Source: Nocardia sputorum
Lineage (GTDB): Bacteria; Actinomycetota; Actinomycetes; Mycobacteriales; Mycobacteriaceae
Direction: 5' to 3'
Assembly: GCF_027924405.1 (NCBI RefSeq)
Contig: NZ_AP026978.1
Coordinates: 3,348,001 to 3,412,000, forward strand
DNA: 64,000 bases
In this document: piece after piece, positions 10,061-62,706 of the stretch
Layout of the letters: each line of letters begins with the position of its first letter
Numbering within the stretch: position 1 is the stretch's first letter
Translations under genes and position numbers: made by a program
Notes under the pieces: model-generated
What the model was told of the DNA's origin: nothing
The model's input: the letters and a program-made list of their open reading frames with translations, nothing else
Database searches by the model: none

Positions 10061-10087
10061 CGGCGGACAGTCGGCCGAGAGGGCGGG

Positions 10088-10961: not shown

Positions 10962-12326
10962 TCATTGACCGGAACCGTCGGCCGCCACTGGGGAGGCGGG
11001 GAGCCCGGCGGAGGCGGTGACGGTTTGGCGAAGGTCCTCGCCTTTGGTCTCACGAACTCGCCAGATACACAGAATGGTCGCGACGCCGCAGCCCATGGCC
11101 AGCAAGACCAGGGGCGTGCTGGTCGTTCGGGAAGCGAGCAGGGCACTGGCGACGAGGGGAGTGAAGCCACCACCGAGCAACGCCGCGAATTGATAGCCCA
11201 TCGTCGCGCCGGTGTAGCGGATCGAAGTGCCGAACATCTCCGAGAGCAGGGCGCCCAACGGCGCGAACATGGCGGACTGGAGAAGCTGCCCCAGCACCAT
11301 GGCGGTGAACAGCAGCGGCACCGACCCGGAATCCACCAGTGCGTAGACCGGCCAAGCGAGCAGCACGATGCCGATGCCGCCGCCGAGGACGACCGGCCTG
11401 CGCCCGACGCGGTCGGACAACGCCGAGAACAGGGGAATCGCGACGAGCGCGGTGCTCGAGACGAACAGCAGGCCGGTCACGGCGCTGGAGCGGGCGTAGC
11501 CGATGGAGGTGGCGTAGCTGAGCATGTAGGTGCTGAGCAGGGCGGTGAGTGCGAAGGGGCCGATCCCGATCCCGCACGCCAGCAGGAGGGTCACCGGCTG
11601 GCGGAGCGCGGCCACGAAGGGGATCGAGGGTGCGGGCGTCTGGCTGCCGGTCTGTGCGCGAAACACCGGGCTCTCGGTGACGCCTATTCGCAGATACAGT
11701 CCCGCCGCGAGCAGTGCGATGCTGGCAAGGAAGGGTATGCGCCAGCCCCACGAGAGCAAGTCCTCCGCAGGCAGCAGTGCCACCGTGGCGACGACACCGG
11801 TGGACAGCAGCGACCCGATCGGTGACCCCATCTGCATGATCCCGTTCCAGAAGCCGCGCCGATGCGGTTCGGCGTGCTCGGTGACCATCAGCGTCGCGCC
11901 GCCCCATTCGCCGCCGAGGGCCACCCCTTGCACAACACGCAGCAGCACCAGCAACAGCGGCGCCACGATGCCGGCGGTGTGGTAGGTCGGCAGCGCGCCG
12001 ATCAGGAAACTCGACGCTCCCATCAGCCCCATTGTCAAGACGAGCATGGATTTGCGGCCGATTCGGTCACCGAAGTGGCCGAAGAGGACGCCGCCGATCG
12101 GTCTGGCCACGTACCCTGCGGCGAGCGTGCCGAACGCCGCGATGGTTCCCAGCGCCGGATTCGAGGCCGGGAAGAAGACCTTGTTGAACACAAGGGCGGT
12201 CATGGTGCTGTAGAGCAGGAAGTCGTAATACTCGATCGCGGTGCCGAGCAAGCTCGAAACGGCGATCCTGCGCAGCAGTGTGGGGTCGGGCCGCGGATCG
12301 GATTCCGGCGTGGCTGCCGAACTCAT
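10962..12326 (-). CDS. MFS transporter, metabolite:proton symporter type
   Basis: A 454-aa, about 12-helix major facilitator of the MHS (shikimate/citrate/proline-betaine) subgroup. Features are EYYDFLLY in helix 1, FGHFGDRIGRK in the helix 2-3 loop and LGGEWGGA in helix 5. It probably imports the growth substrate or an organic-acid breakdown product. GGAGG precedes ATG 12326 and an operator copy lies at 12397-12413. It is read toward the tetR gene but with a 250-bp gap. Confidence 0.85.
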   Translation of the reverse strand: MSSAATPESDPRPDPTLLRRIAVSSLLGTAIEYYDFLLYSTMTALVFNKVFFPASNPALGTIAAFGTLAAGYVARPIGGVLFGHFGDRIGRKSMLVLTMGLMGASSFLIGALPTYHTAGIVAPLLLVLLRVVQGVALGGEWGGATLMVTEHAEPHRRGFWNGIMQMGSPIGSLLSTGVVATVALLPAEDLLSWGWRIPFLASIALLAAGLYLRIGVTESPVFRAQTGSQTPAPSIPFVAALRQPVTLLLACGIGIGPFALTALLSTYMLSYATSIGYARSSAVTGLLFVSSTALVAIPLFSALSDRVGRRPVVLGGGIGIVLLAWPVYALVDSGSVPLLFTAMVLGQLLQSAMFAPLGALLSEMFGTSIRYTGATMGYQFAALLGGGFTPLVASALLASRTTSTPLVLLAMGCGVATILCIWRVRETKGEDLRQTVTASAGLPASPVAADGSGQ

Positions 12327-44870: not shown

Positions 44871-45600
44871 GTGAAGGGTTTGGGGATCTCGGAATCGTGC
44901 CTGCGGAACTGGCCGCGACGTGCCGATATCGATGAGGGCGCCCAGGAGGGCGTGACCAGCGCTGAACGTAAGGAACTGGCTGAGCTGCGGCGAAGGACTC
45001 GGCAACTCGAACTGGAGAACGAGATGCTGCGTAAGGCTGCGGCCTACTTCGCGCGGGAGAAAGTCCTCCCAAAATGGTGTTCCCGGTGGTCGCGCAACTG
45101 GCCGAAGCCGGCATTCCGGTCACGGTGTCATGCCGTGTGCTGCGGGTGTCGACCTCCGGGTACTACGAGTGGAAGCAGCGGGGCGAGTCTGCGCGTGCTC
45201 GCGCTGATCGTGAACTCACCGCCACGATCACCGAGGTCCACATCGCGTCGCGCGGTACCTACGGTGCTCCGCGGGTGCATGCCGAGTTGCGGCTCGGTCA
45301 GCGGATTCGAGTGGGTCGCGAACGTGTGGCCCGGCTGATGCGCAGCGCTGGGCTGGCCGGAATTTTCCGCCGCCGTCGCGGCTGCACCACGCGAGATCCG
45401 CTGGCCAGTCCGCACCCGGACCTGGTCAACCGCCGCTTCAGCGCCGATGATCCGGACCGGTTGTGGTGCATGGACTTGACTCAGCACCGCACCAGCGAAG
45501 GCCGGGTGTACTGCGCCGTCGTGCTCGATGCGTTCTCCCGGCGCGTCGTCGGCTGGTCGATTGCAGACCATCTACGCGCCGAACTGGTCGTGTCCGTCAG
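44871..45600 (+). mobile_element. IS3-family remnant
   Basis: Plus-strand OrfA lacks its N-terminus ([19 protein letters not shown] onward, with the leucine-zipper-like [11 protein letters not shown]). OrfB starts at 45074 ([16 protein letters not shown]) and includes the first two catalytic Asp regions (WCMDLTQHR and VVLDAFSRRVVGWS). OrfB is cut near 45600, before the catalytic Glu, where serine-recombinase sequence takes over. No terminal repeats remain, so both ends are lost. Confidence 0.8.
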
Positions 45601-46877
45601 CGCATCGACCGGAGCAGAACCGCCACCGCGCCAAGGACGGTTGGCAGGCCGGAACGGTAGCCGCGATCCTGCAGAATCCCCGATACACCGGCTACGCGGT
45701 GTTCGGGCGTTGGACCAAGCACGAAGAACTCCTCGATCCCGACGACGCTGCCGCCGGTAACGTCACCCGGTTCCGGCGCTCGCCCACCCACCGCATCGTT
45801 CGCTCGAAAAGCCCTGCGCATCCAGCCATCATTTCGGTAGAAACCTTCACCCAGGCTCAACTGCTGCGACGCCAGCGTGCCGGCGGCGGCAACCGCACCC
45901 GCGCCAAGCTCGGACGCGACAGAGCATCCAGCGGTCTGCGCCCGTATCTGCTGAGCGGCCTCGTGCGCTGCGCTGGCTGTGGTCGAAAGATGCAGGCGGA
46001 GTTGGTTGGTGACGCCGTGTACTACCGATGCCGCGCCAAAACCATCGCCCCCGACAGTCCGGACTTGCAAGACCATCCCCGGACAGTGAACCTGCGCGAA
46101 GATGTCGTCGTCGGGCCGATCGACAGCTGGCTGGCGAGCCTGTTCGATCGCGAACACCGCGAGAAGACCATCGCGGCGCTCGCGGCCGCCCAAGACACCG
46201 ATGACACCAACGTTCAGCGACGAACGCTTCGGCAACGGATCACTGACGCTGAGGCCAGACTCGCGCGTCACCTCGCCGCCATCGAGGCCGCAGTCGATCC
46301 GCAAGCCCTCGTCACGGCGATGAACACGGCACAGGCGGGCAAAGCGGCAGCTCAAGCCGAGTTGAAGAGCCTGCCCAAGATCAACCTGCTCACAGAAACC
46401 GAGATCCGGAAGTTGATCGAATCCCTCGGCGACATCCGCGCGGTGCTCGCTGCGGGAGATCCGGCCGATAAGGCCCGGTTGTACCGAGCCTTGGCCTTAG
46501 AAGTGCGCTACCAGCACCAACAGCAACTCGCAATCGTTGGTGCCACCCCCTGTGGGGTTAGCACTGGTGTCCGGAGGGGGAGTCGACCACTACGCACACG
46601 CGCTGTACCAGCGAAAAGTTCTGGTCGTGGGTGGCTGACTGTCCCAGGTTGGAGCCCTCGGCGGGGCACACAAAACATGGGCAACTGGAAAACGCCTGGT
46701 GATCGTGGGCACGTACTCAATGTGAGGGTTGCGATGATCGCGTCCGGAGAGCCGGTCATTTCCATGTTCACAGCGCCCTCGGCGGGGCGTTGTGAACATG
46801 GGAATGGGACGAGCTGCGGTTTCGGGCGGTCGGTTGGCGATCGAAGTCGACCGGCTCGATACCGACGATTGCGGTGA
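45600..46877 (+). pseudogene. Large serine recombinase, N-terminus lost
   Basis: The frame carries the Recombinase domain (GTVAAILQNPRYTGYAVFG), the zinc ribbon (LVRCAGCGRKMQAE with YYRCRAK) and a coiled coil (TLRQRITDAEARLARHLAAI) of a large serine integrase. The catalytic resolvase domain is missing; the left end is fused to the IS3 remnant. Residues after about 46550 do not look like recombinase. The lost enzyme could have carried the adjacent BREX island (inference). Confidence 0.8.
46762..46801. repeat. 40-bp near-perfect palindrome downstream of recombinase remnant
   Basis: CCATGTTCACA (46762-46772) and TGTGAACATGG (46791-46801) flank a second stem CGCCC/GGGCG with a 6-nt loop. The loop word CCCTCGGCGGGGC is repeated exactly 121 bp upstream (46655-46667). 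It may be a terminator or a vestigial recombination site. Confidence 0.6.
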
Positions 46878-47282: not shown

Positions 47283-47921
47283 GTGGCCGTGACCGACCAG
47301 CCACGAGCACGCTATGCATTATCGTTCACGAGTGGCGGCCTCTTGGTCCGTGAGGGCGAGGTGATCGCCGAGGTATATCTGGGTTGCCGTTCCTGGGACG
47401 AGACTCGCACCCGGATCGTAGAGGGTAACCGGCTACAAGCACGCACGTCCTCATCGAGCACTCGTGTCACCCGCGAGACCGTTCAACGTCTGTCCGTGCT
47501 GAGCGACAGTGAGCTCGAGCTGCTCATCGACGCAAGCCCCACCGAGCAGCGTCATCTCATGTGGGTTGCGGCCTGCCGTCGCTACGACTTCATCGGCGAC
47601 TTCGCCGAAGAAGTTCTCCGCGAACGTTTCCTGCTGATGACCCCCACCTTGAGCACCGAGGACTTCGACCGTTTCCTGACCGGCAAGAGCCTGTGGCACC
47701 CGGAACTCGACGAGCTGAAATCTTCGACCAGTCAGAAGCTCCGCCAGACCCTGTTCCGGATGCTCCACGAGGCAGGACTGCGCACCACGAGTGGGGACAT
47801 CATCCCTGCGGTGCTCTCCGCGCGTGTCGCCGAGCTACTCGGCCGCCGGGCCCCTAGTGACCTCCGGTTCTTCCCGACCACGGCGCCGATCAGCGAGTTC
47901 GACCACGAGGTGCAGCTATGA
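47283..47921 (+). CDS. brxA: BREX protein BrxA (DUF1819)
   Basis: A 212-aa protein matching BrxA: it opens the operon, has the DUF1819 pattern LSFTSGGLLVREGEVIAEVY and QKLRQTLFRMLHEAGLR, and is followed by BrxB. BrxA is a small helical DNA-binding protein of type 1 BREX. GTG 47283 has AGGAAGGA upstream; TATAGC at 47243 is a possible -10 box. Its stop overlaps the brxB start (ATGA). No WYL-type BrxR regulator is encoded just upstream; only debris is present. Confidence 0.9.
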   Translation: MAVTDQPRARYALSFTSGGLLVREGEVIAEVYLGCRSWDETRTRIVEGNRLQARTSSSSTRVTRETVQRLSVLSDSELELLIDASPTEQRHLMWVAACRRYDFIGDFAEEVLRERFLLMTPTLSTEDFDRFLTGKSLWHPELDELKSSTSQKLRQTLFRMLHEAGLRTTSGDIIPAVLSARVAELLGRRAPSDLRFFPTTAPISEFDHEVQL

Positions 47922-48526
47922 GGACCACCCAACGGGACCTCGTCAGCGACGAGAAGCACGTCTACGACGTGCTGCGCAGTGAGCGGTTCCTGAAGATGGA
48001 AGGCCTGTCCAAGGAAGTCCCGTTCTTCATCTACCACTTCCCGCCGTCATGGGCACTCGGCGTCGACGACATGCGTGACCGTGTGCAGACGAAGCTGCAA
48101 AGCGACGAGGGGCGCAGTGTCGTGGAAATCAATCTCTACGACCTTGCCGTGGAGCTGTTGAAGGCCCGCGGTGTCTGGGAACGCGTCCTCGACCTCGAGC
48201 CAACGATGGACAAGTCGGAGTTCCGTGGCGTGTTGCAGGGCATGCTCGATCCGCACGACCACCTCGCACCTGCCATACGGGCACGGCTCGATGAGCAGCC
48301 CAGCGACATGGTCTTCCTCACCGGCATCGGCGAGGTATTTCCCTTTATCCGCACCCACACGGTGCTGGAGAACCTGCAAAGCGTCGTGGTCGGGCGTCCG
48401 ATGCTCGTCTGGTTCCCGGGCACCTATGAGTTCACTCAGACAGCCGGTCACCAGCTGCGCGCACTGAACCTCGGTGCCAGCGACAGCTACTACCGGGCCA
48501 AGGACATTCTGGAGCAAGAAGCATGA
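47918..48526 (+). CDS. brxB: BREX protein BrxB (DUF1788)
   Basis: A 202-aa protein of the DUF1788 family: VVEINLYDLAVELLKARGVW, VFLTGIGEVFPFIRTHTVL and MLVWFPGTYEF are typical. BrxB is an essential type 1 BREX component of unknown biochemistry. It overlaps brxA and brxC by 4 bp each, so the three are translationally coupled. Confidence 0.9.
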   Translation: MRTTQRDLVSDEKHVYDVLRSERFLKMEGLSKEVPFFIYHFPPSWALGVDDMRDRVQTKLQSDEGRSVVEINLYDLAVELLKARGVWERVLDLEPTMDKSEFRGVLQGMLDPHDHLAPAIRARLDEQPSDMVFLTGIGEVFPFIRTHTVLENLQSVVVGRPMLVWFPGTYEFTQTAGHQLRALNLGASDSYYRAKDILEQEA

Positions 48527-51500
48527 GCGTGCGCACGATCAACGAGATCTTCGCCAAGCGGATCGACCGAGCAATCGAGGGTGTCATCAAGGCCGATGAC
48601 ACCTCCCAGCTCGCCACCGAGGTGGAGGAGTATGTCCTCACGAACGAGGCCGCCAAGGGCGTAGAGCATGTGCTGGAGGCCTACACCAACTACACGAACA
48701 CCAACGGCGTGTGGATCTCCGGCTTCTTCGGCTCCGGTAAGTCACACCTGTTGAAGATGCTCGCCCACCTGCTCGGTGATATCGACGGCCACGAGTATCC
48801 ACGGGCCCGGGTCTCGGAACAATTCCGGGCCAAGGCCGATGACGCCTTCCTGCCTGCCCTGATCGCGAAGGCCGACCGGATCGCAGCCAAGAGTCTTCTG
48901 TTCAACATCGACCAGAAGGCCACGCTGATCTCGAAGGACCAGAACGACGCGTTGCTCAAGGTTTTCGTGAAGGTCTTCGACGAGTCCTGCAGCTACTACG
49001 GCAATCAAGGGCACATCGCCCGTTTCGAACGCGACCTGGACTCCCGTGGTCAGTACGCCGAGTTCAAGGCCGCCTTCGAGCGCATCGCAGGGATTCCGTG
49101 GTCGCAGGGCCGCGAACAGGCGGCACTGGAAACCGGGAACATCGACAAGGCATTCGCCGAGGTCAACGGCTCCGAGAGCCCGGGCATCATCCGCCAGTAC
49201 AGCCAGACCTACAAGGTCTCGATCGAGGACTTCGCTGACGAGGTCGCCGCCTGGCTGGGTCGGCAGCCCGAGGGCTACCGACTGAACTTCTTCGTCGACG
49301 AGGCCGGCCAGTTCATCGGCACCAACACCCAGCTCATGCTGAACCTCCAGACCATCGCGGAGTCCCTTGCGACGAAGTGCAAGGGGCGCGCGTGGATCTT
49401 CGTCACCTCGCAGGAGGACATGGAGAAGGTCGGCGGAGACCGCACCAAGCAGCAGGCCAACGACTTTTCCAAGATCCAGGCCCGCTTCAAGAACCGGCTC
49501 AAGCTCACCAGTCAGGATGTCGAAGAAGTCATCCGGAAGCGACTACTCGCCAAGACCGCGTCCGCCACAGGTGAGATTGCGGCGATCTACAGCGCCGAGC
49601 ACGCGAACTTCAAGACGCTTTTCGACTTCGTCGAGGGACGTCACTACCCGAACTACCGGGATGAGTCCCACTTCGTGGGCACTTACCCATTCGTGAGCTA
49701 CCAGTTCCCGCTGTTCCAGTCCGCGATCGAAGGCATCAGCGACCACAACATCTTCGAAGGCCGCAACAGCTCCGTCGGTGAGCGCTCCATGCTCGGCGTT
49801 GTTCAGCAGGTCGCCACCGAACTGGCCGACAAACCCTTGGGGACGCTCGCTTCCTTCGACCAGATGTTCGAGGGCATCCGCGCCTCGTTGAAGTCCGCAA
49901 ACCAGCGGGCCATCAACGACGCCGAGCGCAGCCCCTCGCTTCCTCCACTGGCCGTCCGGCTGCTGAAGGCCCTGTTCCTGGTCAAGTATGTGGACACCTT
50001 CAAAGCCACCGCCCGGAACCTCACCGTGCTCGTCTATGACCACTTCGGCACGGATCTCGGCCAGCTGGGCAAGGACGTCAACGCGGCCCTCAATGCACTG
50101 GAGGCGCAGACCTATATCCAGCGCAACGGCGACCTGTACGACTATCTGACCAATGAAGAGCAGAAAATCGAGCAGGAGATCAAGAATGTCGACATCGACA
50201 ACTCCGAGGTCTCCGGAAAGCTCAACAAGCTGCTCGCCGAGTCCGTGGTCAAGCTGACCAAGAGCACCTACAAGAACGGGCAGAACTTCCCCTTCGGATA
50301 CAAGCTCGACGGCACGCCGTATGGCAAGCAGTACGAGCTGTCACTCCACTTCACCAGCCCTGAAAGCGAGTTCAGTCTGGATCAGATCAAGGCCCACAGC
50401 GCCGGGCTCGACGAACTGCGCGTTGTTCTCCCGGCAGAGGCCAACCGCATCCTCGGCGACCTGCGCCTGCTGCTGAAGACGGAGAAGTACGTCAAGCGCG
50501 CCCAGGGGTCGAGCCGCACGGCGATCGAGCAAACGATCCTGCGAGCGAAGGGAACTCAGAACGCGGAACGGGAAAAGGAAATCGTCGAACGGTTGCGTAC
50601 CGCGGTCGGCAACTCGACACTGATCCACAACGCCGGCGTCCTGGACGTCAGCTCATCCGACGCGCAAGCCCGGATCAACGAGGGGTTCCAGCGGGTCATC
50701 GCTGCGACGTACAAGAACCTCGGGATGCTCGCCGGCAAGACCTTCAATGAGCAGAGCCTGGGTGAATTCGTGAACCCCGCAGGTGACGGCTTGTTCCAGC
50801 AGACGGGGAGCATCCTGGAGGTTCCCGGCGGAGACGTGCTCGGTCACCTGGAGCTGCGCCGCAAGCGCCATGAGCAGGTCACCATGCGGCAGCTCATCGA
50901 TCGATACACGGCGAAGCCGTTCGGCTGGGATCAGTGGTCTGTCGCCGCGGTGGTCGTATACCTTGCCGGGCAGTCGAAGATCGAGATCCAACTGAACGGG
51001 AAGGTCCTGGCTCGCACCGAGATCACCAGTGCGCTGCGGAACACACAAAGCTACTCGGCCATGGTCGTCGCGCCGCAGCGGGTGTTCGATGCCAAGATCG
51101 TGAATGCGTTCCGCAAGTTCGTCGTGGAATTCACCGATGACGGAGGGGTCACCAAAGACCCATTGGAACTAGCGCGGGCTGGCAAAGAACGCCTGGAAGC
51201 CAAACTCGCAGAATTGAAGACGCTGCGTACAGCTTCACCGTTCGCGTTCATCGATCAGCTGGACGAGCCGATCCAGATGCTCGCCGAGCTGTGTGAACAC
51301 AAGGCGGACTGGTTCATCACCGACTTCAGTGACGCTGATGACCTGCTCGACGCGAAGGGCAACGTGATCGACCCGATCAAGGCCTTCCTGAACGGCAGCC
51401 AGTGCGGCATATTCGAAAAAGCCCTGGCCTTCATGCAGAGCAACCAGTCCAACATCGCCTACCTGGTCCCCGGCGCCACCGACGCCGTCGAATCCGCCCT

Positions 51501-52044
51501 GGAAGACCCACAGATCTTCCGTGGCAACAAGACCCGGCAGCTCGGTGCCGCGGTAGAGGACCTGGAACAGCAGTTGCACAGCTTGATCGACGCGGAACGT
51601 ACCGCCGCCACCGACAAGATCAACGGCTACTGGCTTCAAGTGCCGCAAAGCAGGGCATACGCCGACGCAACCGATACCGCCCAGCATTCGGTGACGAGCA
51701 AAACGCAGGCCGTGCTCGACCGGGTGCGGCAGGAGACACAGATCCCGGCCATCAGGAACCTCGCAGCCCACTTCGCCGACACGATCTACCCGGAGATCAT
51801 CGACGAACTGGAAGCCGCCAAGGCCGCGCCCGATCCGAGCTCCGAACCGAAACCCCAGCCCGGTACCGACCCCGCCCCGAAACCCGCACCGGCGCCGACC
51901 AAGCAGACCGTGTCGATCAAGAAGCTGACGCTGCCCGGCAACGGTCAGGTCCTCGAAACCGCGGACGACGTCGACGCCTACCTCGACAGGCTCCGTGCGA
52001 CGCTGCTCGCCACGATCAACGACAACAAGCGCATCACGCTCTGA
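48523..52044 (+). CDS. brxC: BREX ATPase BrxC
   Basis: A 1173-aa AAA-type ATPase, close to the usual BrxC length. The Walker A motif GFFGSGKS is at residues 67-74 and a Walker B-like NFFVDEAGQFIG follows near residue 255. The C-terminal 60 residues include a Pro-rich linker. BrxC is needed both for BREX methylation and phage exclusion. Its ATG overlaps the brxB stop. The gene looks intact. Confidence 0.92.
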   Translation: MSVRTINEIFAKRIDRAIEGVIKADDTSQLATEVEEYVLTNEAAKGVEHVLEAYTNYTNTNGVWISGFFGSGKSHLLKMLAHLLGDIDGHEYPRARVSEQFRAKADDAFLPALIAKADRIAAKSLLFNIDQKATLISKDQNDALLKVFVKVFDESCSYYGNQGHIARFERDLDSRGQYAEFKAAFERIAGIPWSQGREQAALETGNIDKAFAEVNGSESPGIIRQYSQTYKVSIEDFADEVAAWLGRQPEGYRLNFFVDEAGQFIGTNTQLMLNLQTIAESLATKCKGRAWIFVTSQEDMEKVGGDRTKQQANDFSKIQARFKNRLKLTSQDVEEVIRKRLLAKTASATGEIAAIYSAEHANFKTLFDFVEGRHYPNYRDESHFVGTYPFVSYQFPLFQSAIEGISDHNIFEGRNSSVGERSMLGVVQQVATELADKPLGTLASFDQMFEGIRASLKSANQRAINDAERSPSLPPLAVRLLKALFLVKYVDTFKATARNLTVLVYDHFGTDLGQLGKDVNAALNALEAQTYIQRNGDLYDYLTNEEQKIEQEIKNVDIDNSEVSGKLNKLLAESVVKLTKSTYKNGQNFPFGYKLDGTPYGKQYELSLHFTSPESEFSLDQIKAHSAGLDELRVVLPAEANRILGDLRLLLKTEKYVKRAQGSSRTAIEQTILRAKGTQNAEREKEIVERLRTAVGNSTLIHNAGVLDVSSSDAQARINEGFQRVIAATYKNLGMLAGKTFNEQSLGEFVNPAGDGLFQQTGSILEVPGGDVLGHLELRRKRHEQVTMRQLIDRYTAKPFGWDQWSVAAVVVYLAGQSKIEIQLNGKVLARTEITSALRNTQSYSAMVVAPQRVFDAKIVNAFRKFVVEFTDDGGVTKDPLELARAGKERLEAKLAELKTLRTASPFAFIDQLDEPIQMLAELCEHKADWFITDFSDADDLLDAKGNVIDPIKAFLNGSQCGIFEKALAFMQSNQSNIAYLVPGATDAVESALEDPQIFRGNKTRQLGAAVEDLEQQLHSLIDAERTAATDKINGYWLQVPQSRAYADATDTAQHSVTSKTQAVLDRVRQETQIPAIRNLAAHFADTIYPEIIDELEAAKAAPDPSSEPKPQPGTDPAPKPAPAPTKQTVSIKKLTLPGNGQVLETADDVDAYLDRLRATLLATINDNKRITL

Positions 52045-52060: not shown

Positions 52061-55000
52061 ATGGATACCAAGCCCCTGGAGCGATTCGCCACCCGGGCCC
52101 GCCGAGAACTGCTCGCCGCCGTCGAAGCTCAGGCTTCAGCGGTGCTCGCTGCTGGCTCGGTCGCGCGGAGCGAGCGCGGGAAAACGGTGCAGCGACTCGA
52201 AAGGGAGATCGCCGAGCACGGTCGGAAGCACGTGATCGACAAGGTCGCATACACATGGTTCAACCGGCTCATCGCACTGCGCTACATGGATGCCCGCAGC
52301 TACACGAGCGCCGGAATCGTCTCGCCGGCACACGGCCACGACCACGGACAGCCGGAGATCCTTGCCGACGCCAAGCGGGGACACCTCGACACCGACGTAG
52401 TCACCAACGACCGCATGGCCGATGCGATCCTGGGGCTGCTCGACGGGACCCTTCGCAGTACGGACGCCGAAGGGGAGGCCTACGCGCTGCTCTTGACCGA
52501 GTACTGCCGGTACTGGAACAAGGCCATGCCCTTCATGTTCGAGCGTGAAGGCGATCACACCGAAATCCTCGTGCCGTCAGGGCTTCTCGCCGACGGTGGG
52601 ATTCTGTCGCGTGCCCGCGAGGTGCTCACGGAGGACGTCTGCAAGGACGTCGAGGTGATCGGATGGCTCTACCAGTTCTACATCTCCGAGCGGAAAGACG
52701 AGGTCTTCGCCGGTTTCAAGAAGAACAAAAAGGCCGGCGCCGACGAGATCCCGGCGGCAACCCAGCTCTTCACGCCACACTGGATTGTTCGCTACCTGGT
52801 TGAGAACTCGCTCGGCAGGCTGTGGATGCTCAACCGGCCGACCTCGCGCCTCGTCGACCAGATGGATTATTACATAGCCCCGGTCGACAAAATAACCGAC
52901 TTCCTCGAGATCAACGGCCCCGAGGAACTGACGGTGATCGACCCGGCCTGCGGGTCGGGCCATATGCTCACATACGCCTTCGACCTGCTCTACGCAATCT
53001 ACGAAGAAGAAGGTTACGCCCCCTCGGAAATCCCGAGCCTGATCCTCGCCCACAACCTCCACGGCACCGAGATCGACCTCCGCGCAGGATCACTGGCAGC
53101 CTTTGCGCTCACAATGAAGGCACGCGACCGGGACCGGCGCTTCTTCACCCGATCGCAGGTGAAGCCCAAGATCTGCGTCATCGAACCGATCTCGTTCGGA
53201 CCCGATGAACTGGACCTCCTGGTGACCGCGGACGGCGAGCGGCGCGCGGAGGAGGCGTTCTGGAATCAGTTCCGCGACGCCGACCGGCTCGGTGCACTGA
53301 TTCAACCGGACGCCGAAGAGGCCAAGCGAGCAGCCAGCGTAGTGGAAGATTTGAAGGAGCAGGAAGGGACGCTCCTTTTCGAGACGCTGGACCAGGCACA
53401 CAAGGTCGTCGCGCAGGCCGCGATCCTCAGTCGCAAGTACGCGATTGCGGTGGCAAACCCGCCCTACATGGGCAGCAAGAACATGGACGCTCGACTGGTG
53501 GATTTCGTTAAGAGCGAGTACGCCGATGGTAAACAAGATCTCTACGGTTGCTTCGTCCTCCGCGCGATGGATCTCGTCTCTCAAGGAGGCATGGTCGGGA
53601 AGGTAATCGGCGATACGTGGATGTCGATCGTGAGCTTTAAGGGCCTGCGAGAAGACATCCTCGCAGGCCACTCGTTTGACAGTTTTGTCCACCTTCGAGA
53701 TGTCTCCAACCACCCTGACGTCTTTGGCGCAAACGCCGCCTTCATTCTCGCGATGACCAACTCGCCGGGACGGCAAGCTCCCTTCGTTCGCTTGACGTCG
53801 TTGAATGAAGAAGAGAAATGTCTGCGTCTCATCGAAGCAATCAAAGACCCCGAATGTGAGTGGCGATTTACGGCAACGTCCGAGGATTTCACCAAAGTAC
53901 CTGGCTCACCGATCGCGTACTGGCTCTCCGACGCCATGCGTGCCGCTTTTGCCAAGGGGCGACCGTTGAAGGAAGTTGCAGCGCCTCGACAAGGTCTGTC
54001 GACCGCAGATAATGGTCGGTTTCTACGCTCCTGGTGGGAGGTAGAATTACGCCGAATATTGCTGGGGTGTGAGAGCAGAGCTGAGGCCAGAGAGTCTGCT
54101 GCGCGGTGGTTTCCTCACAACAAGGGTGGCGAGTTCCGAAAATGGTGGGGGAACCAAGAACATCTGGTGGACTGGGAAAATGATGGTCGAGAGCTGCTTT
54201 CGCTGCGACCAAAGTCGGTTATCCGTAATCCTTCCACCTATTTTCAACCATCTGTCTCATGGTCAAGGATTAGCTCAGGAGATCCCGCCTTTCGCGTGTA
54301 TCCACATGGGTTCATATACAACGATGTTGGGCCATCGCTCTTCTTTGACGACGCCAGCACTCGGTACTCGTTTGTCTCGCTGGCTAATTCTAGTGTGGCT
54401 CACGCTATTTTGCAGGCAGTGGCGCCGACTCTGCATTTTGACGGAGGTCAGATTGCACAGTTGCCTGTATTTGACTCGGGCTCAGCACAACGGGCGAGAA
54501 TTTCGGAAGGTGCAGTAAAGGTATCGCAGGCGGACTGGGACGATTTCGAGACGTCTTGGAGCTTCACAACTCCATCGTGGATGGCTACGAGGGTATCTGG
54601 ACAGACGCTGTCCGAACACTACGCTGCGTGGTCGGTGAGACAATCTCAAATTGCTCGCGAGCAACGGGCACGCGAGACAGCGAACAACCGTGTCGTTGCC
54701 GAGGCATACGGACTGCAAGACGAGGTGCAGATCGAGGTGCCACTCCACCGCGTGTCCCTGAATCGCAATGTTGAATTCCGGTACGGCCCTGGTAAATCGG
54801 ACACCGAGTACGAGGCCTTGGAACGTGCTGATTTCGTTAAAGAGTTGTTCTCCCACGCCGTGGGGTGCATGTTTGGTCGCTACAGCATCGACGCGCCGGG
54901 TCTGATCCTGGCGGACCAGGGCGCGACGCTTCAGGACTACCTCGCGAAGGTGCCGTCGCCCACGTTCCTGCCGGATGCCGACAATGTCATCCCGTTCGTT

Positions 55001-55585
55001 GACGACGGCTGGTTCGAGGACGACATCGTCGAGCGGATCCGGCAGTTTCTGCGTACAGCCTTCGGAGCGGAGCACTTCGAGAAGAACCTCCGTTTCGTGG
55101 AGGAATCCCTGGGCGTCAAGACGATTCGGGACTACTTCATCGCGAAGTCGAACCCAGCCGGTAAAAATGTCGCGAGGTCGAGGTTCTACGAGGATCACGT
55201 GCAACGCTATAAGAAGCGCCCGATCTATTGGATGTTCTCCTCTTCCAAGGGATCGTTCAACGCGCTGGTCTACATGCACCGCTACACCCCGTCAACGGTG
55301 TCGACGGTCCTGAACGAGTACCTCCGTGAATACCGAGCGAAGCTCGAGGTCGCGCTCCAGCGCGCTGAGGAAGCCTCTGCCGGTGGCGCATCGGCGAAAG
55401 CGCAGAAAGAAGCTGATCGCCTGCGCGCGATCCTCGCCGAGCTGCGCGACTACGAGCATGACGTCCTCTACCCGTTGGACATCCAGAGAGTAGAGATCGA
55501 CCTCGACAACGGCGTGAGGGTGAACTACCCAAAGCTCTATCCAGCTTTGAGGAAGATCACCGGTCTGGAGGCATCGGATGGGTGA
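52061..55585 (+). CDS. pglX: BREX adenine-specific DNA methyltransferase PglX
   Basis: A 1174-aa N6-adenine methyltransferase. The SAM motif DPACGSGHML is near residue 294 and the catalytic NPPYMGSKN near residue 466. Methylation of a non-palindromic site marks self DNA in BREX. ATG 52061 is 16 bp after brxC; an upstream in-frame ATG overlaps brxC. Bases from roughly 53,790 to 54,560 are visibly richer in A/T than both sides, consistent with a swapped target-recognition region. The stop overlaps the next small gene by 8 bp. Confidence 0.92.
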   Translation: MDTKPLERFATRARRELLAAVEAQASAVLAAGSVARSERGKTVQRLEREIAEHGRKHVIDKVAYTWFNRLIALRYMDARSYTSAGIVSPAHGHDHGQPEILADAKRGHLDTDVVTNDRMADAILGLLDGTLRSTDAEGEAYALLLTEYCRYWNKAMPFMFEREGDHTEILVPSGLLADGGILSRAREVLTEDVCKDVEVIGWLYQFYISERKDEVFAGFKKNKKAGADEIPAATQLFTPHWIVRYLVENSLGRLWMLNRPTSRLVDQMDYYIAPVDKITDFLEINGPEELTVIDPACGSGHMLTYAFDLLYAIYEEEGYAPSEIPSLILAHNLHGTEIDLRAGSLAAFALTMKARDRDRRFFTRSQVKPKICVIEPISFGPDELDLLVTADGERRAEEAFWNQFRDADRLGALIQPDAEEAKRAASVVEDLKEQEGTLLFETLDQAHKVVAQAAILSRKYAIAVANPPYMGSKNMDARLVDFVKSEYADGKQDLYGCFVLRAMDLVSQGGMVGKVIGDTWMSIVSFKGLREDILAGHSFDSFVHLRDVSNHPDVFGANAAFILAMTNSPGRQAPFVRLTSLNEEEKCLRLIEAIKDPECEWRFTATSEDFTKVPGSPIAYWLSDAMRAAFAKGRPLKEVAAPRQGLSTADNGRFLRSWWEVELRRILLGCESRAEARESAARWFPHNKGGEFRKWWGNQEHLVDWENDGRELLSLRPKSVIRNPSTYFQPSVSWSRISSGDPAFRVYPHGFIYNDVGPSLFFDDASTRYSFVSLANSSVAHAILQAVAPTLHFDGGQIAQLPVFDSGSAQRARISEGAVKVSQADWDDFETSWSFTTPSWMATRVSGQTLSEHYAAWSVRQSQIAREQRARETANNRVVAEAYGLQDEVQIEVPLHRVSLNRNVEFRYGPGKSDTEYEALERADFVKELFSHAVGCMFGRYSIDAPGLILADQGATLQDYLAKVPSPTFLPDADNVIPFVDDGWFEDDIVERIRQFLRTAFGAEHFEKNLRFVEESLGVKTIRDYFIAKSNPAGKNVARSRFYEDHVQRYKKRPIYWMFSSSKGSFNALVYMHRYTPSTVSTVLNEYLREYRAKLEVALQRAEEASAGGASAKAQKEADRLRAILAELRDYEHDVLYPLDIQRVEIDLDNGVRVNYPKLYPALRKITGLEASDG

Positions 55586-55814
55586 CTTGAAGTCCGCCGG
55601 TGGACCGAGCGCGGCAGGCCCGTTCGAGCAGGGCTCTGCGCTGATCGAGACGGCCGGGTCGGCTGTCGCGCCGCCAGCGAACGCGGCGTTGGCGCTGATG
55701 AATTGGCAAATCAGACACCTGATCGACACCAAGAGGATCCAGCAGCAGCGCGCGGAGTACGGGCTTGCGCGTCGCCAATTCGGCAGCCGCCGAGATGACG
55801 AGGACCACGAATGA
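55578..55814 (+). CDS. 78-aa BREX-embedded small protein
   Basis: A 78-aa protein whose ATG overlaps the pglX stop by 8 bp and whose stop overlaps the pglZ start (ATGA), so it is expressed with the operon. The N-terminal half is Gly/Ala-rich; the second half (LALMNWQIRHLIDTKRIQQQ) is probably an amphipathic helix ending in a charged tail. I do not know a BREX component of this size at this position. It may bind PglX or PglZ, or be a modulator. Confidence 0.75.
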   Translation: MGDLKSAGGPSAAGPFEQGSALIETAGSAVAPPANAALALMNWQIRHLIDTKRIQQQRAEYGLARRQFGSRRDDEDHE

Positions 55815-58312
55815 GCAAGACGCCCACGATCTCCAGCCATCTCGTGGACCGCTTCGCCGGGCAACGCATCGTCGTGTGGCACGACCCTGAGGGCGGATAC
55901 GCGGCTGACCTTGAGAGCCACTTGCCGAGTGACGTCACCATGCTGCGCATCGAGGACAATGAGTTCGCCGTCAAGCATCGTGTGCTCCGCGAGGATACGA
56001 CGACTCGATTTCTGCTCTACCGCTCTGGACCCGTCGCTGAAGGGGCAGGGAACTGGTTGCTGGACCTCGAGTTGGCCTATGGACCCGTGTTCACGGCAGA
56101 TCGTGGTGAGCTCATGCGGGCCGGCCTGGGGCTGACCCAGCCTGGTGCCGACGCGCTCATCGCCGAGCATGCCTCGTTCTTCGCTGACGCCACGTTGGTC
56201 GACAAACTGAAGGCGTTGCTCGCTCCGAGTGATGATCTCGTGACGGTGCGGGCGAAGATGTGCGCTGTCGCGATCGGGCAGAAGGAGCACAGCTTCTCCG
56301 AGCTCACACGTACCCTGCTGGTTCAACAGGCACAGGACAGCTCGGACGGTTTCGACGCTCTCTCCCAGTATGGGCTCGCCGACTTCCACTGGACCGGCGC
56401 GAAGCACATCTATGGGTACCGATCGGAGTCACCGACAGTGCCGGGCTTCATTCTGTGGATGTTCCGGCAGGCTCGCGATGGCTTCGACGTCACCTCGTCG
56501 AAGCGTGCCCGCAACCTCGCAATCGATTTCCGTAGCTTCCGGGACTCCAAACGCAGCGCGACCGCGATCAAGGTACTCGCCCGCAAGGCCGAGGAGGACC
56601 TCGGCTACCAGGAGGGAGTCGCTGAAATCCCGTGGGACGCGCTCAGGGACGCCGATATCTTCGAAGCCGCTGAGCGGGAGACAATCCGCCGTCTGGTCGA
56701 TGGGCTCGTCAACCAGACGATGCCGCAGCGCGATGTTCTCGAAGCCATCGGCACCCGCCGTCGTGACAGCTTCTGGTTCGAGGACTACGCCATCCTCTAC
56801 GAGGCATTGGCGGCAGCCGCCGAGCTTCTGCCCGCGATCCGCACCGGCCGACTGGATTTCACCAGCTTCGACGAGGGGATCACGCGGTACCGTGACGAGC
56901 TGTTCCGTATCGATCAGCGCTACCGCCAGTTCACCCACGCGTACCTGACGGCCGAGTTCAAGCAGCCGCTCGATGAGTTGGCGGGCCGGGTCGAGGCTGC
57001 CTACGTCACGAACTTCCTGGCCCCGCTCGGCATATGCTGGCAGCAGCAGGTCGACGCGATCGAGCAGTGGCGTACGCCCGCCGTGACCTCTCAATCCTCG
57101 TTCTACGACCAGTACGTCGCGCAACTCACCAAAGGTGGTCACAAGAAGGCCGTCGTCGTGATCTCCGACGCGATGCGTTACGAGATCGCCGAGGAGTTGA
57201 CCTCGAAGATCCGTGGTGAGAACAAGTTCGAAGCCAAGATCGAGGCACTGCTGGGTGTGCTGCCGAGCTACACACAGCTGGGCATGGCGGCGCTCCTACC
57301 GCACAAGACCCTGGCGCATTCTCCGGCGGGTGATCCGGTTCTGGTCGATGGGCTGAAATCCGACGGTTCGGCGAACCGCAACAAGATTCTGAACGCAGTG
57401 GGGGGCGTCGCTGTCCAAGCGAAAGACTTCGTGGAGATGAAGCCGGCCGAGCGGCGAGAACTGTATTCATCCCACCAGGTACTCTACGTCTATCACGACA
57501 CGATCGACGCCACGGGAGACAGCGCGAAATCGGAACACCGCACCTTTTCAGCAGTGGCAGAAGCACTCGATCAGCTGGTCGATATCGTGAAGAAGCTCGC
57601 CAACGCGAACGCCACGAACATCTTTGTCACCGCGGATCACGGCTTCCTCTATCAGCGCTCCAAACTGGCGCCGCAGTTCAACCTCACCGTCGAGCCGCAA
57701 GGTGATGAGATCGTTGCAGAGAAGCGCCGTTACGTGCTGGGCCGTGGTCTGAAGGAGGATGCCGGATTCCGGACCTTCCAACCGGATCAGCTGGGGCTGT
57801 CCGGCGATCTCGAGGTGCAGATTCCGAATTCGATCCACCGGATCGTCAAGGCAGGTGCCGGGTTCCAGTTCGTGCACGGGGGAGCATCGCTCCAGGAGAT
57901 CGTGGTGCCGGTCGTCTCGATCAACAAGAGACGCAACAACACAGTCGAGCCAGTCAACGTCGACATCCACCCTGAGTCCGACAAGATCACCACGGGTCAG
58001 ATTGTTGTCAAGCTCTACCAGTCGATGAAGGTCGAACCGCACCGCACTGCACGACGGTTGCGTGCCGGGCTGTACTTCGGGGACCAGCTGATCTCGAACG
58101 AACAAGAGATGATGTTCGACTCGGCGAGCGACCAGGGGCGTGACCGATTCCAGAGCGTTCGGCTCCTGCTGAGCAAGGACGCGGACGATGCGAACAACCA
58201 AGGTGTGGAATTCCGCCTGTTGGAGCCGATTGAGGGCACCGATCAGTGGAAGAAGTACAAGAGCGTGCCGTACACGATCAAACGTTCCTTCACAACGGAC
58301 TTCGACTTCTAA
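55811..58312 (+). CDS. pglZ: BREX phosphatase-like protein PglZ
   Basis: An 833-aa protein of the PglZ family. The alkaline-phosphatase-like domain has VVVISDAMRYEIAEEL near residue 450 and FVTADHGFLYQRS near residue 605, which supply metal ligands. PglZ is the hallmark of BREX. It overlaps the upstream small gene by 4 bp and is followed by brxL after 10 bp. Length and motifs appear complete. Confidence 0.93.
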   Translation: MSKTPTISSHLVDRFAGQRIVVWHDPEGGYAADLESHLPSDVTMLRIEDNEFAVKHRVLREDTTTRFLLYRSGPVAEGAGNWLLDLELAYGPVFTADRGELMRAGLGLTQPGADALIAEHASFFADATLVDKLKALLAPSDDLVTVRAKMCAVAIGQKEHSFSELTRTLLVQQAQDSSDGFDALSQYGLADFHWTGAKHIYGYRSESPTVPGFILWMFRQARDGFDVTSSKRARNLAIDFRSFRDSKRSATAIKVLARKAEEDLGYQEGVAEIPWDALRDADIFEAAERETIRRLVDGLVNQTMPQRDVLEAIGTRRRDSFWFEDYAILYEALAAAAELLPAIRTGRLDFTSFDEGITRYRDELFRIDQRYRQFTHAYLTAEFKQPLDELAGRVEAAYVTNFLAPLGICWQQQVDAIEQWRTPAVTSQSSFYDQYVAQLTKGGHKKAVVVISDAMRYEIAEELTSKIRGENKFEAKIEALLGVLPSYTQLGMAALLPHKTLAHSPAGDPVLVDGLKSDGSANRNKILNAVGGVAVQAKDFVEMKPAERRELYSSHQVLYVYHDTIDATGDSAKSEHRTFSAVAEALDQLVDIVKKLANANATNIFVTADHGFLYQRSKLAPQFNLTVEPQGDEIVAEKRRYVLGRGLKEDAGFRTFQPDQLGLSGDLEVQIPNSIHRIVKAGAGFQFVHGGASLQEIVVPVVSINKRRNNTVEPVNVDIHPESDKITTGQIVVKLYQSMKVEPHRTARRLRAGLYFGDQLISNEQEMMFDSASDQGRDRFQSVRLLLSKDADDANNQGVEFRLLEPIEGTDQWKKYKSVPYTIKRSFTTDFDF

Positions 58313-58322
58313 GGGAGCGACG

Positions 58323-60461
58323 GTGAGCGAAAACATCGACCTGGACCAGGCCGCGCCCATCGAGGACGTTCTGGAAGCCGAGGCGCCGCACGCAACGGGG
58401 CAGCCCAGCGATCTGGATCGCAAGATCAACGAGCATTTCGCTGGCGCCGTGGTCCGCAAGGACCTGGTCAAGGCGGTCAAGGGCAACGCGATCGTACCCT
58501 CCTACGTGTTGGAGTACCTGCTCGGTCAGTACGCGGCCTCCGACGATGAGGCCACGATCCGGGCAGGCATCGACAAGGTGCGAGAAATCCTGGCCCAGCA
58601 TTACGTGCACCGCAACGAGTCCGAACTGGTCAAGTCGCGCATTCGTGAAAAGGGCCGCTTCCGGATCATCGACAAGGTGAGCGTCACCCTCAACGAGAAA
58701 GATGACGTCTACCAGGCATCCTTCGCCAACCTCGGAATCAGCGGAGTTCTCGTGGACCCGGGCACCGTCAACGCGAATCAGAAGCTGCTCGTCAGTGGCG
58801 TGTGGTGCCTGTGCGACATCGAATACTTCCACAGCGACGACCCCCGTGCCGTGCCATGGATTCTCGGCAGCTTGAAGCCGATCCAGATGTCGAACTTCGA
58901 CTATCAGAATTACCTGGATGCGCGGGCGAAGTTCACCACGGACGAGTGGATAGATCTGCTGATCCAGTCGATCGGCTTCGACCCGGAGAAGTTCGGCCGT
59001 CGCGCCAAGCTACTCCAGCTCATTCGCCTCATCCCGTTCGTTGAGCGCAACTACAACCTTGTCGAGCTCGGCCCGAAGGGAACCGGCAAGTCGCACATCT
59101 ACTCGGAGTTCTCGCCTCACGGCATGCTGATCTCCGGCGGAGAGGTCACCGTACCCAAGCTGTTCGTCAACAACGCCAACGGCCGCCTCGGGCTCGTCGG
59201 TTACTGGGACGTAGTTGCCTTCGACGAGTTCGCGGGCAAGAAGAAGCGCACCGACAGGGCGCTCGTCGACATCATGAAGAACTACATGGCGAACAAGTCG
59301 TTCTCCCGTGGAGTCGAGACCCTCGGCGCAGAGGCATCGATGGTGTTCGTGGGCAATACCTCGCACACCGTGCCGTACATGCTCAAGCACTCCGACCTTT
59401 TCGACGAGCTCCCCGAGAGCTACCACGACCCGGCCTACCTCGACCGGCTGCACTGCTACATCCCTGGCTGGGAATTCGACACGATCCGCGGCGACATGTT
59501 CTCCACCGGGTATGGATTTGTCGTCGACTACATCGCCGAGGTGCTCAAGTCGATGCGGGACCTCGACTATTCCGACCGCTACCAGCCGCATTTCACGCTT
59601 GGCTCAGACATCTCGAGCCGCGACCGCGACGGCATCCACAAGACCTTCTCCGGTCTCATGAAGCTGCTCTACCCGCATGAGAAAGCCACCGCTGAGGAGA
59701 TCGAGGAGACCCTGCGCTTCGCGATCGAGGGACGTAAGCGTGTGAAAGACCAGATCCTGCGTATCGACGACACCATGGTCGCGGTGAATTTCGGCTACCG
59801 GCCGCTGGCCGGCGAATGGACGGCCGTCACCACGCTGGAGGAAGACGAGTACCCGGGGCATTATCACCGTGGACGACCGAGTACAGGGGACGTCGATGAG
59901 GAAGCTGCGGATCCGGCTACGCCGGCGACCGCGGCTGCTTCGGCTACGGTCAAGGAGGAGTTGTACCAAGGGCAGCGGGACTTCGTCGAGAACCAGCGCG
60001 GAGTCTCCTACGAGACCCTTCTCATGCCGTATCTGCGTGGTGCGACGGAGATCGAGTTGCACGACCCGTATATCCGGATGAGTCACCAAGGCCGGAACCT
60101 GGTCGAGTTGCTGGCGTTGATCGCGTCGGCGAAGGACCCTGCTGAGGAGGTGTTGTTCAAGCTGTTCACCCTCCTCGAAGATGATCCTGACAAACAGAAG
60201 AAGCAGTTGCAGATGCTCCACCAGATCGTTCAGGGATCCGCCCAGCAGGGGATAAAGGTAGAAGTGGCCAAGGACCCCGGGGGTCACGACCGCTGGATCC
60301 GCACCAACAATGGATGGCGCATCAACCTCGGTCGTGGTCTGGACATCTTCCAGAAGCAAGAAGGCGGCTGGTTCGACTTCGGTAGTACCCGTCAGGAGTT
60401 CCGCCAGGTTCGCGCCTTCGGAGTGACCTACATTCGAGATGAGGTGACGGGACCCCGTTGA
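58323..60461 (+). CDS. brxL: BREX protein BrxL with MIT_C-like C-terminal domain
   Basis: A 712-aa protein. Residues 1 to about 500 match BrxL: HFAGAVVRKDLVKAVKGN, LEYLLGQYAASDDEAT, Walker A GPKGTGKSH (250-258) and Walker B VVAFDEFAGKKK (about 296-307). E. coli BrxL ends in a Lon-like domain; here, after a Pro/Ala linker, residues about 547-712 instead resemble the human MITD1 C-terminal PLD-like domain: VSYETLLMPYL, ELHDPYIRMSHQ and HDRWIRTNNGWRINLGRGLD. GTG 58323 has GGGAG upstream. The last five residues (VTGPR) come from an inserted IS end; without it the frame would end DEG-stop. Confidence 0.88.
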   Translation: MSENIDLDQAAPIEDVLEAEAPHATGQPSDLDRKINEHFAGAVVRKDLVKAVKGNAIVPSYVLEYLLGQYAASDDEATIRAGIDKVREILAQHYVHRNESELVKSRIREKGRFRIIDKVSVTLNEKDDVYQASFANLGISGVLVDPGTVNANQKLLVSGVWCLCDIEYFHSDDPRAVPWILGSLKPIQMSNFDYQNYLDARAKFTTDEWIDLLIQSIGFDPEKFGRRAKLLQLIRLIPFVERNYNLVELGPKGTGKSHIYSEFSPHGMLISGGEVTVPKLFVNNANGRLGLVGYWDVVAFDEFAGKKKRTDRALVDIMKNYMANKSFSRGVETLGAEASMVFVGNTSHTVPYMLKHSDLFDELPESYHDPAYLDRLHCYIPGWEFDTIRGDMFSTGYGFVVDYIAEVLKSMRDLDYSDRYQPHFTLGSDISSRDRDGIHKTFSGLMKLLYPHEKATAEEIEETLRFAIEGRKRVKDQILRIDDTMVAVNFGYRPLAGEWTAVTTLEEDEYPGHYHRGRPSTGDVDEEAADPATPATAAASATVKEELYQGQRDFVENQRGVSYETLLMPYLRGATEIELHDPYIRMSHQGRNLVELLALIASAKDPAEEVLFKLFTLLEDDPDKQKKQLQMLHQIVQGSAQQGIKVEVAKDPGGHDRWIRTNNGWRINLGRGLDIFQKQEGGWFDFGSTRQEFRQVRAFGVTYIRDEVTGPR

Positions 60462-60884: not shown

Positions 60885-61196
60885 ATGCCCAAAAAGATCG
60901 ACCCAGTGCTTCGGAGCCAGGCCGTCAGGCTTGTGCGGGAGCACCGCTCGGAGTACTCGACCGAGCGTGCCGTGCATGTCCAGGTCGCCGAGTCCCTCGG
61001 CGTGTCCCGGGAATCGGTGCGGCGCTGGGTGATGCAGGAAGAGATCGACGCGGGCCAGGTGCCGGGTGTGACCAGCGACGAACGCGACGAGTTGCGCCGG
61101 TTGCGGGCGGAGAACAAGCGGCTGCGTGAGGTCAACGACATCCTGAAATCGGCGACAATTTTCTTCGCGGGGGAACTCGACCCCCGAAACCGCTGA
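60885..61196 (+). CDS. IS3-family OrfA (inner element)
   Basis: A 103-aa protein with an N-terminal helix-turn-helix (LGVSRESVRRWVMQEEIDAG) and a C-terminal leucine-zipper-like helix (LRRLRAENKRLREVNDIL). It binds the IS ends and is normally fused to OrfB by -1 frameshifting; TTTTC at about 61159 is a possible slip region. It is intact. Confidence 0.88.
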   Translation: MPKKIDPVLRSQAVRLVREHRSEYSTERAVHVQVAESLGVSRESVRRWVMQEEIDAGQVPGVTSDERDELRRLRAENKRLREVNDILKSATIFFAGELDPRNR

Positions 61197-61198
61197 TC

Positions 61199-62170
61199 GT
61201 GGCATTCACCGACCAGATGCGCGCTGCTGGTCACGCCGTCGAGTCGATCTTGATCGCCCTCAGCACCGCTGGGCTCAAGATCGCGGCACGAACCTTGCGG
61301 GCCTGGTGTGCCCCGGCTGGACCCGGGAACAGGCCGGCGGCCAGGACCGTGACCGACGCCCTGATCCAGGACGCGATCCGGACCCTGGCGTTCACCACCA
61401 CCGCAGCCGGGCAGCGTGTGCTGACCCCGGAAGGGCTCTATGGCCGGCGCAAGATGCTGGCTCTCATCCGCCGGACCCTGTTCCCCGACGCCGGGTTCGG
61501 GGCCGTCGACCGAGCCATGCGCTCGCTCGGCTTGACCGGTGTCGTGCGTGGTAAACGAGCCAGGACCACGATCTCGAACCCGGCCGACACCAGAGCACCT
61601 GATCTACTTGACCGGGACTTCACCGCGGTCGCGCCGGACCGGAAGTGGGTGACAGATTTCACGTATGTGCGGACGTATCAGTCGTTTTCGTATGTCGCGT
61701 TCATTGTGGACTGCTTCTCCCAGAAGATCGTGGGCTGGCATGCCTCGATCAAACGGGACGTCGAGCTGGTCGATGTGCCGTTACGGATGGCGCTGTGGCG
61801 CCGTGGCCATGAAGGTAATCCGGTCGAAAGAGGTCAGTTGACATGCCATTCCGATGCGGGGTCTCAATACACCAGTATCCGCTTCACCGAGCATCTGCGG
61901 ATCGAGGGCATCAGCCCATCGATCGGCAGCGTCGGCGACGCCTACGACAACGCCCTGATGGAGACCATAAACGGCCTCTATAAGGCCGAATGCATCCGCA
62001 CGGCGGTGTTCCACGACGGTCCGTGGAAGACGATCGCCGATGTCGAGTACGCGACCGCGGCATGGGTCGAGTGGTACAACAACCGGCGCTTGCATTCGAG
62101 TCTGGGCATGATCTCACCGACCGAGTACGAGGCAGCGCACTACGCTGACACAGACCGATGGGCCGAGTGA
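61199..62170 (+). CDS. IS3-family OrfB transposase (inner element)
   Basis: A 323-aa DDE integrase-fold transposase in the -1 frame relative to OrfA. Catalytic residues are the Asp in WVTDFTYVRT, the Asp in CHSDAGSQYTS and the Glu in ALMETINGLYK, followed by WYNNRRLHSSLG. GTG 61199 is the annotated start, but synthesis is probably as an OrfAB fusion. It is intact, so the element may still move. Confidence 0.9.
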   Translation: MAFTDQMRAAGHAVESILIALSTAGLKIAARTLRAWCAPAGPGNRPAARTVTDALIQDAIRTLAFTTTAAGQRVLTPEGLYGRRKMLALIRRTLFPDAGFGAVDRAMRSLGLTGVVRGKRARTTISNPADTRAPDLLDRDFTAVAPDRKWVTDFTYVRTYQSFSYVAFIVDCFSQKIVGWHASIKRDVELVDVPLRMALWRRGHEGNPVERGQLTCHSDAGSQYTSIRFTEHLRIEGISPSIGSVGDAYDNALMETINGLYKAECIRTAVFHDGPWKTIADVEYATAAWVEWYNNRRLHSSLGMISPTEYEAAHYADTDRWAE

Positions 62171-62706
62171 CTATCGGCTCGTAAAACACCGGCAGGAAAG
62201 CCGGGGCGGTTCAATGAGCCGGTCGGCGGTGATGGAGCGTTCGACCAGCCCGCCCAGGCATTCGCGGGTGTGCTCATCGACGATGGACACGATCTTGACT
62301 GGACGGCCGTCATCGGTGGCGTCGAACTGGAAATCGACTGCCCACACTCGATTCGGTGCGTCCGCGGTCACCGCCGTGACCGTCGAGTCACCGATTCGTT
62401 TACGGCGCCGTCGCTGCGGCACCCGTAACCCTTCCTGCCGCCACAGGCGTTGGATCTTCTTGTGATTCACCGTCCAGCCCTCGCCGCGGGCGTCGTGGTA
62501 GGCGCGGCGGAACCCTTGCCGTGGATGGTTGCGTGCCCAGTCACGCAACCATGCCCGCAACGGGGCATCGCGATCCGTGGGCTGCTGCGCGCCCGCAGGA
62601 CGGCGCTGGGTACTGCGATGCTGCCCGGTCACCCGGCAGGCGAACCGTTCGCTGACGCCCATGAGGCGCATCAGATGCGCTACGGCCGCCCGCCGACGTT
62701 CCGGGT

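Follow-up and report, generated by a model that had tools for sequence, protein, structure and literature searches.

The last gene of the bacteriophage exclusion (BREX) locus of Nocardia sputorum, brxL, raises the question of what kind of domain ends its product and what that domain might do. The gene lies in a window of 64,000 nucleotides (assembly GCF_027924405.1, contig NZ_AP026978.1, positions 3,348,001 to 3,412,000; all coordinates given below without a locus handle are those of the window), for which an earlier note, made from the sequence alone, had proposed an ordinary BrxL core followed by a domain of the MITD1 type in place of the Lon-like domain. Sequence comparison and structure prediction indicate that the protein is indeed an AAA+ ring subunit, similar to the minichromosome maintenance (MCM) proteins, in which a phospholipase D (PLD)-fold homologue of human MITD1 replaces the Lon-like tail; a human cell-division protein and a bacterial anti-phage ring protein end in the same domain.

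A Pfam scan gave only three families above cut-off, BrxL_N, BrxL_ATPase and MIT_C, the last (PF16565) with 128.7 bits against a cut-off of 25; the segment 59961-60461 encodes residues 547-712 and the stop codon. The ordinary core is borne out by both Pfam core domains and by the BrxL family model TIGR02688 (616.6 bits; cut-off 329.3), while the PADLOC model for BrxL, PDLC02508, aligns with residues 29-706 over positions 2-695 of 698. In single-sequence phmmer searches of the PDB, the Lon-type BrxL structure 8emc was matched at residues 28-484 only (E = 2.5e-141) and human MITD1 over the tail (E = 7.8e-19); with a profile of 80 MIT_C domains MITD1 rises to 2.1e-41 and nothing else falls below E = 0.1. 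The AlphaFold2 (AF2) model of residues 545-712, built from 48 rows, has a predicted local distance difference test score (pLDDT) of 92.3, and two structure aligners gave MITD1 as the best PDB match of the predicted tail, which has the MITD1 fold and, more generally, the PLD fold. The full-length AF2 model was poor (mean pLDDT of 59.0, predicted template modelling score of 0.46), so that it is only weak evidence for a loose linker ahead of the tail. The N-terminal MIT domain that is a hallmark of MITD1 was not found in BrxL by the Pfam scan, the N-terminus being that of BrxL. We regard the identity of the tail as MIT_C as virtually certain. A tblastn search with 168 residues of this domain found no relative at E = 0.01 among 50,697 phage records.

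That a divergent Lon domain has been taken for MIT_C would accord with the customary annotation of BrxL as 'Lon protease-like', as in plasmid records, but is exceedingly improbable given the fold of the tail and its MIT_C score. The Lon-type Acinetobacter BrxL (PDB codes 8emc and 8emh) shares the N-terminal and AAA+ domains and its C-terminal domain is left unmatched. TIGR02653 matches only 3-467 of 675, below cut-off, and the Lon-like tails of 27 BrxLs score only 14.2 against MIT_C in hhalign, within the range of the shuffled PLD controls given below. The tail holds no Lon domain, in agreement with the earlier note.

The exchange of tails is real, yet it is not peculiar to this locus. Among the loci drawn by MIT_C similarity (L001-L101, with 25 plasmid records in the plasmid search), 94 of the 100 MIT_C open reading frames, the window's own included, carry a BrxL core in the same frame. 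Of the remaining six, one is fused to IF2_N (L007) and one to a dynamin (L009), three are pieces next to split BrxLs (L008, L014 and L094), and one (L011) is a fragment close to an IS21 element. Since this set was selected by the tail, BrxLs were also drawn by their ATPase domain (PF13337) from 296 genomes of the window's phylum and from the three phyla to which the Asticcacaulis, Balneola and Desulfoluna loci belong (398, 345 and 297 genomes); 21 of 21, 18 of 18, 30 of 46 and 30 of 32 loci, respectively, were examined. The first three samples (69 loci, 67 cores reaching the C-terminal end) gave 29 MIT_C, 28 Lon-like, five Schlafen-type and one kinase tail and four short proteins, and the fourth (27 BrxLs) five MIT_C, 18 Lon-like and four short. 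Together, 34 of 94 BrxLs end in MIT_C and 46 in a Lon-like domain, with five Schlafen-type, one kinase and eight short. MIT_C is therefore one of two common C-termini and not the standard one of all type 1 BrxLs, the Lon-like form being at least as common; the 20 BrxLs from the window's phylum comprise five with MIT_C, nine with Lon-like, five with Schlafen and one with kinase tails. By sequence, the Lon-like tails fall into a single cluster, and the two members compared with the PDB (L103 and L107) match the C-terminal part of 8emc (6e-32 and 1e-20).

The frequency of MIT_C agrees with that of a tail called 'HKD-endoDNase', given for 1030 of 2913 taxa with type 1 BrxL in the main text of Rakesh & Krishnan (2026; PMC12839542). 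From its position, frequency and H-x-R motif, the MIT_C tail is very probably this same domain, although the window's copy has N where the D of the published 'HRD' stands. The MIT_C form of BrxL is thus already known and catalogued as a variant: PDLC02508 covers it, carrying no functional statement. The word MITD1 is absent from the main text of PMC12839542. Among the openly readable papers that the search brought up (subscription papers and supplements lay outside it), the link between MITD1 and BREX is touched only by PMC12715929, where a list of BREX families, drawn from previous work, includes PF16565 and MITD1 is left undiscussed. Worth following are the explicit kinship with MITD1, the family of dynamins and, as described below, the tails of the Schlafen and kinase types.

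Conservation was scored in 128 domains from the loci (119 distinct) and in 120 listed dynamin-type domains. Eight positions, D581, Q589, N592, H655, R657, R671, D674 and R694, are invariant or nearly so in both sets; G672, L673 and D674 are present in 128/128 and 120/120, and within the locus set H655 is kept in 127 and R657 in 126, with position 662 being D in 100, N in 27 and S in one. R585 is conserved in the BrxL set and not in the dynamin set. Human MITD1 (PDB codes 4a5z and 2ymb) belongs to the same family and fold and keeps all eight residues, shares N662 with the window's BrxL, has Y at R591, a less strictly kept position, and bears its MIT domain, which binds the endosomal sorting complexes required for transport (ESCRT), instead of the BrxL core. 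An hhalign comparison of 80 MIT_C rows with 25 PLDc_2 domains, chosen for having the HKD motif, places H655-x-R657-x4-N662 on that motif with a score of 37.4, against a maximum of 18.7 among 50 column shuffles. The HxKx4D signature of PLD/HKD nucleases is replaced at the equivalent place by HxRx4N. The PLDc_2 domains compared, like the PLD nucleases SauUSI, NgoAVII, BfiI and Nuc/NucT, have HxK and GSxN, where MIT_C has HxR and GRGLD. The sequence profile indicates kinship with the PLD superfamily, among whose members are both nucleases and lipid enzymes. Sequence and fold thus both lend support to the published nuclease proposal, but the proposal would apply to MITD1 too.

These relationships suggest how the tail could act. 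From the solved Lon-type BrxL, rings would be expected to load on DNA treated as foreign by the BREX complex, and two rings to meet tail to tail, here with the MIT_C domains as contact surfaces. Pairing on DNA would then bring two H-x-R motifs together, since enzymes with a single HKD motif act as dimers with a shared site, and the paired motifs may engage the backbone phosphates of the DNA held by the rings, whether to cleave it or, should the arginine in place of lysine have silenced cleavage, to grip it. We put a DNA-acting output of MIT_C on paired rings at an even chance, a little over half of which falls to actual cleavage; the earlier note's broader suggestion, that the output differs from that of Lon-type BrxL, is probably right. 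Several points weigh against a DNA-acting tail. In human PLD1 and PLD2, replacing the HKD lysine by arginine is the usual way to inactivate the enzyme, and arginine is what 126/128 locus and 120/120 listed dynamin sequences carry. The window's N662 faces D in 100 of 120 listed relatives (15 N, two G, three unscored), and the asparagine of GSxN has no obvious counterpart in MIT_C. The motif, N662 included, is kept by MITD1, a membrane binder according to a review (PMC6015221). The Foldseek match next after MITD1 is human phospholipase D2 (1.2e-4), and the lipid-type matches given by VIA (8.9 for phosphatidylserine synthase, 8.6 each for bacterial phospholipase D and vaccinia F13) score about the same as the nucleases ranked after SauUSI, both kinds lying close to the stated background of 7-8, so the predicted fold does not choose a nuclease over a lipid enzyme. 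The structure of Lon-type BrxL described in PMC10164562 has its C-terminal domains at a distance from the DNA, and the authors state there that BREX restricts without cleavage of phage DNA; later work names PglZ as a nuclease (PMC12839542).

The same arginine would suit a tail that is a non-catalytic pairing or regulatory domain, connecting rings and braking the ATPase, with H-x-R being structural or binding a phosphate ligand, and a Lon-like tail devoid of protease residues is described in the part consulted of PMC10164562 as doing just this job. We consider this doubtful, however: eight charged or polar positions fixed across two unrelated architectures exceed what a connector needs, and other domains found at the tail position retain catalytic-looking residues. 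Eight of the 94 BrxLs end without such a tail, which also speaks against a connector, but two of them (L154 and L161) fall among the MIT_C BrxLs in the core tree and could be damaged genes. Alternatively, the tail may bind membrane lipid as in MITD1, whose domain is characterized in the review PMC6015221 as a membrane-binding PLD fold, and so tether the ring to the envelope, for instance near the site of phage DNA entry. A dynamin-like GTPase, a membrane-type machine, also bears MIT_C, and several of the PLD-fold matches are lipid enzymes. This we judge unlikely, BrxL being a DNA-loading ring according to the same sections of PMC10164562, and a restriction endonuclease being the best VIA match after MITD1. 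What BrxL contributes to BREX remains a matter of debate, and the nuclease reading published for the alternative tail depends on a degenerate motif that a human membrane-binding protein has as well. Once BrxL tails and MITD1 are treated as a single family, the question can be tested directly, with MITD1-type domains assayed for nuclease activity and BrxL tails for lipid binding.

The rarer tails extend the picture. SLFN_AlbA_2 (PF04326) forms the tail in L102, L105, L114 and L119 (Pfam, E from 4e-14 to 1e-17) and, by clustering only, in L116; a Pkinase tail is present in L118 (Pfam, 1.3e-33). Every such tail seen is from the window's phylum, and each follows an intact BrxL_N and ATPase, except in L105, where a stop codon splits the core and the tail comes after the second part. 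Each of the five AlbA_2 tails contains the patterns ExxxxEFK and GGxLxIGVxD; the kinase tail contains HRDxKPxN, with DFN instead of DFG; we take these motifs to be catalytic. Six flanking stretches were available, of which three were scanned (L175, L176 and L177). PglX- and PglZ-like proteins are encoded nearby in each of these, as is BrxC in the last two. Above curated cut-offs are PglX in L175 and type B PglZ and BrxC in L176 and L177; PglZ in L175 and PglX in L176 and L177 fall below them. BREX context was seen in both Schlafen cases checked (L175, with the Schlafen-tailed BrxL at 9939-11969, and L176), and in L177 (the context of L118) the kinase-tailed BrxL, at 9345-11795, comes right after brxC, pglX and type B pglZ. 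Neither tail is described in the main-text BrxL section of PMC12839542 or in its Schlafen and kinase passages, the sole source searched for kinase tails; for Schlafen tails, a limited search of openly readable papers on BrxL with Schlafen and BREX with AlbA likewise found no description. Such tails suggest that the BrxL C-terminus is an output socket.

A tree of 66 cores, made by a quick method and leaving out the split L105, places 27 of 29 MIT_C rows in one group together with the short L154 and L161 (Shimodaira-Hasegawa-like approximate likelihood-ratio support, SH-aLRT, 97), with the long-branched MIT_C rows L120 and L172 outside it; its supported branches require at least three changes of tail. 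As most rows group together, MIT_C appears mostly inherited with the core, perhaps joined or lost more than once, the long branches making this unsure. L120 (the same gene as L003) and L235 bear MIT_C on divergent cores; in the core tree L120 sits with short BrxLs that lack a tail, while the tails of L120 and L235 group together, which may mark a separate joining event.

Outside BrxL, MIT_C ends a dynamin-like protein of 947 residues from Thiodictyon (L009:3622-6465). Its MIT_C has 182 relatives at E <= 1e-3, and Dynamin_N accompanies MIT_C in 116 of the 120 listed (the exceptions being P0131, P0136, P0153 and P0191); the named rows among these are mostly from proteobacteria. These GTPases have the same domain with all eight key residues and no BrxL core, and in a tree of 66 MIT_C rows they form one separate group (100/100). 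IF2_N with MIT_C is a small group (three of seven proteins, query included), represented on a Paenarthrobacter plasmid (L007:7452-8501) whose annotation shows no BREX gene in the 8 kb around it. In the same tree human MITD1 falls with three BrxL tails (L012, L172 and L008), including those of Thioflavicoccus and Hymenobacter BRD67 (100/88), and it is 47% identical to the Thioflavicoccus tail over 145 residues. A constrained tree that sets all BrxL and small rows apart from MITD1 has a likelihood 2.1 higher and is not rejected (approximately unbiased test, p = 0.55), so MITD1 may equally lie outside the BrxL tails, and any descent may have run either way. MITD1, the only eukaryotic sequence in a sample without archaea, forms a long branch; within this sample the BREX tails are the nearest relatives of the human domain, descent not being implied. 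Tentatively, and with the balance tilted against it, BrxL might be a DNA-loaded ring of general use whose output socket accepts different tails (Lon-like, MIT_C, Schlafen RNase-like, kinase or none), with one MIT_C module shared by BrxL, bacterial dynamins and MITD1 and the human domain descending from, or sharing an ancestor with, a phage-defence domain. If so, the retained pocket could mean that one activity, binding or hydrolysis of phosphate or phospholipid headgroups, underlies all three.

The locus itself is a type 1 BREX system with brxL in its MIT_C form, carried on a single-contig genome of 7.43 Mb. Directly upstream of brxL, its last gene, lie brxA, brxB, brxC, pglX and pglZ in that order, each with a near-full-length match to its family model (Table 1).

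Table 1. Features of the N. sputorum BREX locus and of its BrxL
Feature	Position	Strand	Details
brxA	47283..47921	+	212 aa; Pfam PF08849 3.6e-48; PADLOC BrxA 1.3e-74
brxB	47918..48526	+	202 aa; Pfam PF08747 1.5e-33
brxC	48523..52044	+	1173 aa; NCBIfam NF033441 1111.8 bits
pglX/brxX methyltransferase	52061..55585	+	in-frame ATG at 52061; NCBIfam NF033452 1268.6 bits (family searches run on 52064-55585)
pglZ type A	55811..58312	+	833 aa; NCBIfam TIGR02687 662.5 bits
brxL	58323..60461	+	712 aa; GTG start
BrxL_N domain	58431..58826	+	residues 37-168; PF20442 4.2e-47
BrxL AAA+ ATPase	58860..59774	+	residues 180-484; PF13337 6.4e-128
Linker	59856..59960	+	residues about 512-546; pLDDT <50 at 512-552 in full-length model
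MIT_C (MITD1-type, PLD-fold) C-terminal domain	59961..60458	+	residues 547-712
Motif D581-P-Y-I-R585 ... Q589-x-R591-N592	60063..60098	+	conservation counts
Motif H655-x-R657-x4-N662, HKD position	60285..60308	+	hhalign against 25 PLDc_2 domains
Motif G670-R-G-L-D674	60330..60344	+	conservation counts

The nearest named relative of the window's MIT_C domain is from Nocardia araoensis (99%). On a Rhodococcus opacus plasmid an AbiEi/AbiEii pair lies between pglZ and an MIT_C-form brxL (L013:988-2417). Transposase genes with integrase-core domains flank the Nocardia locus near both ends (45074-46877 and 60885-62671), and a C-terminal piece of a serine recombinase lies upstream of it at 45528-46877.
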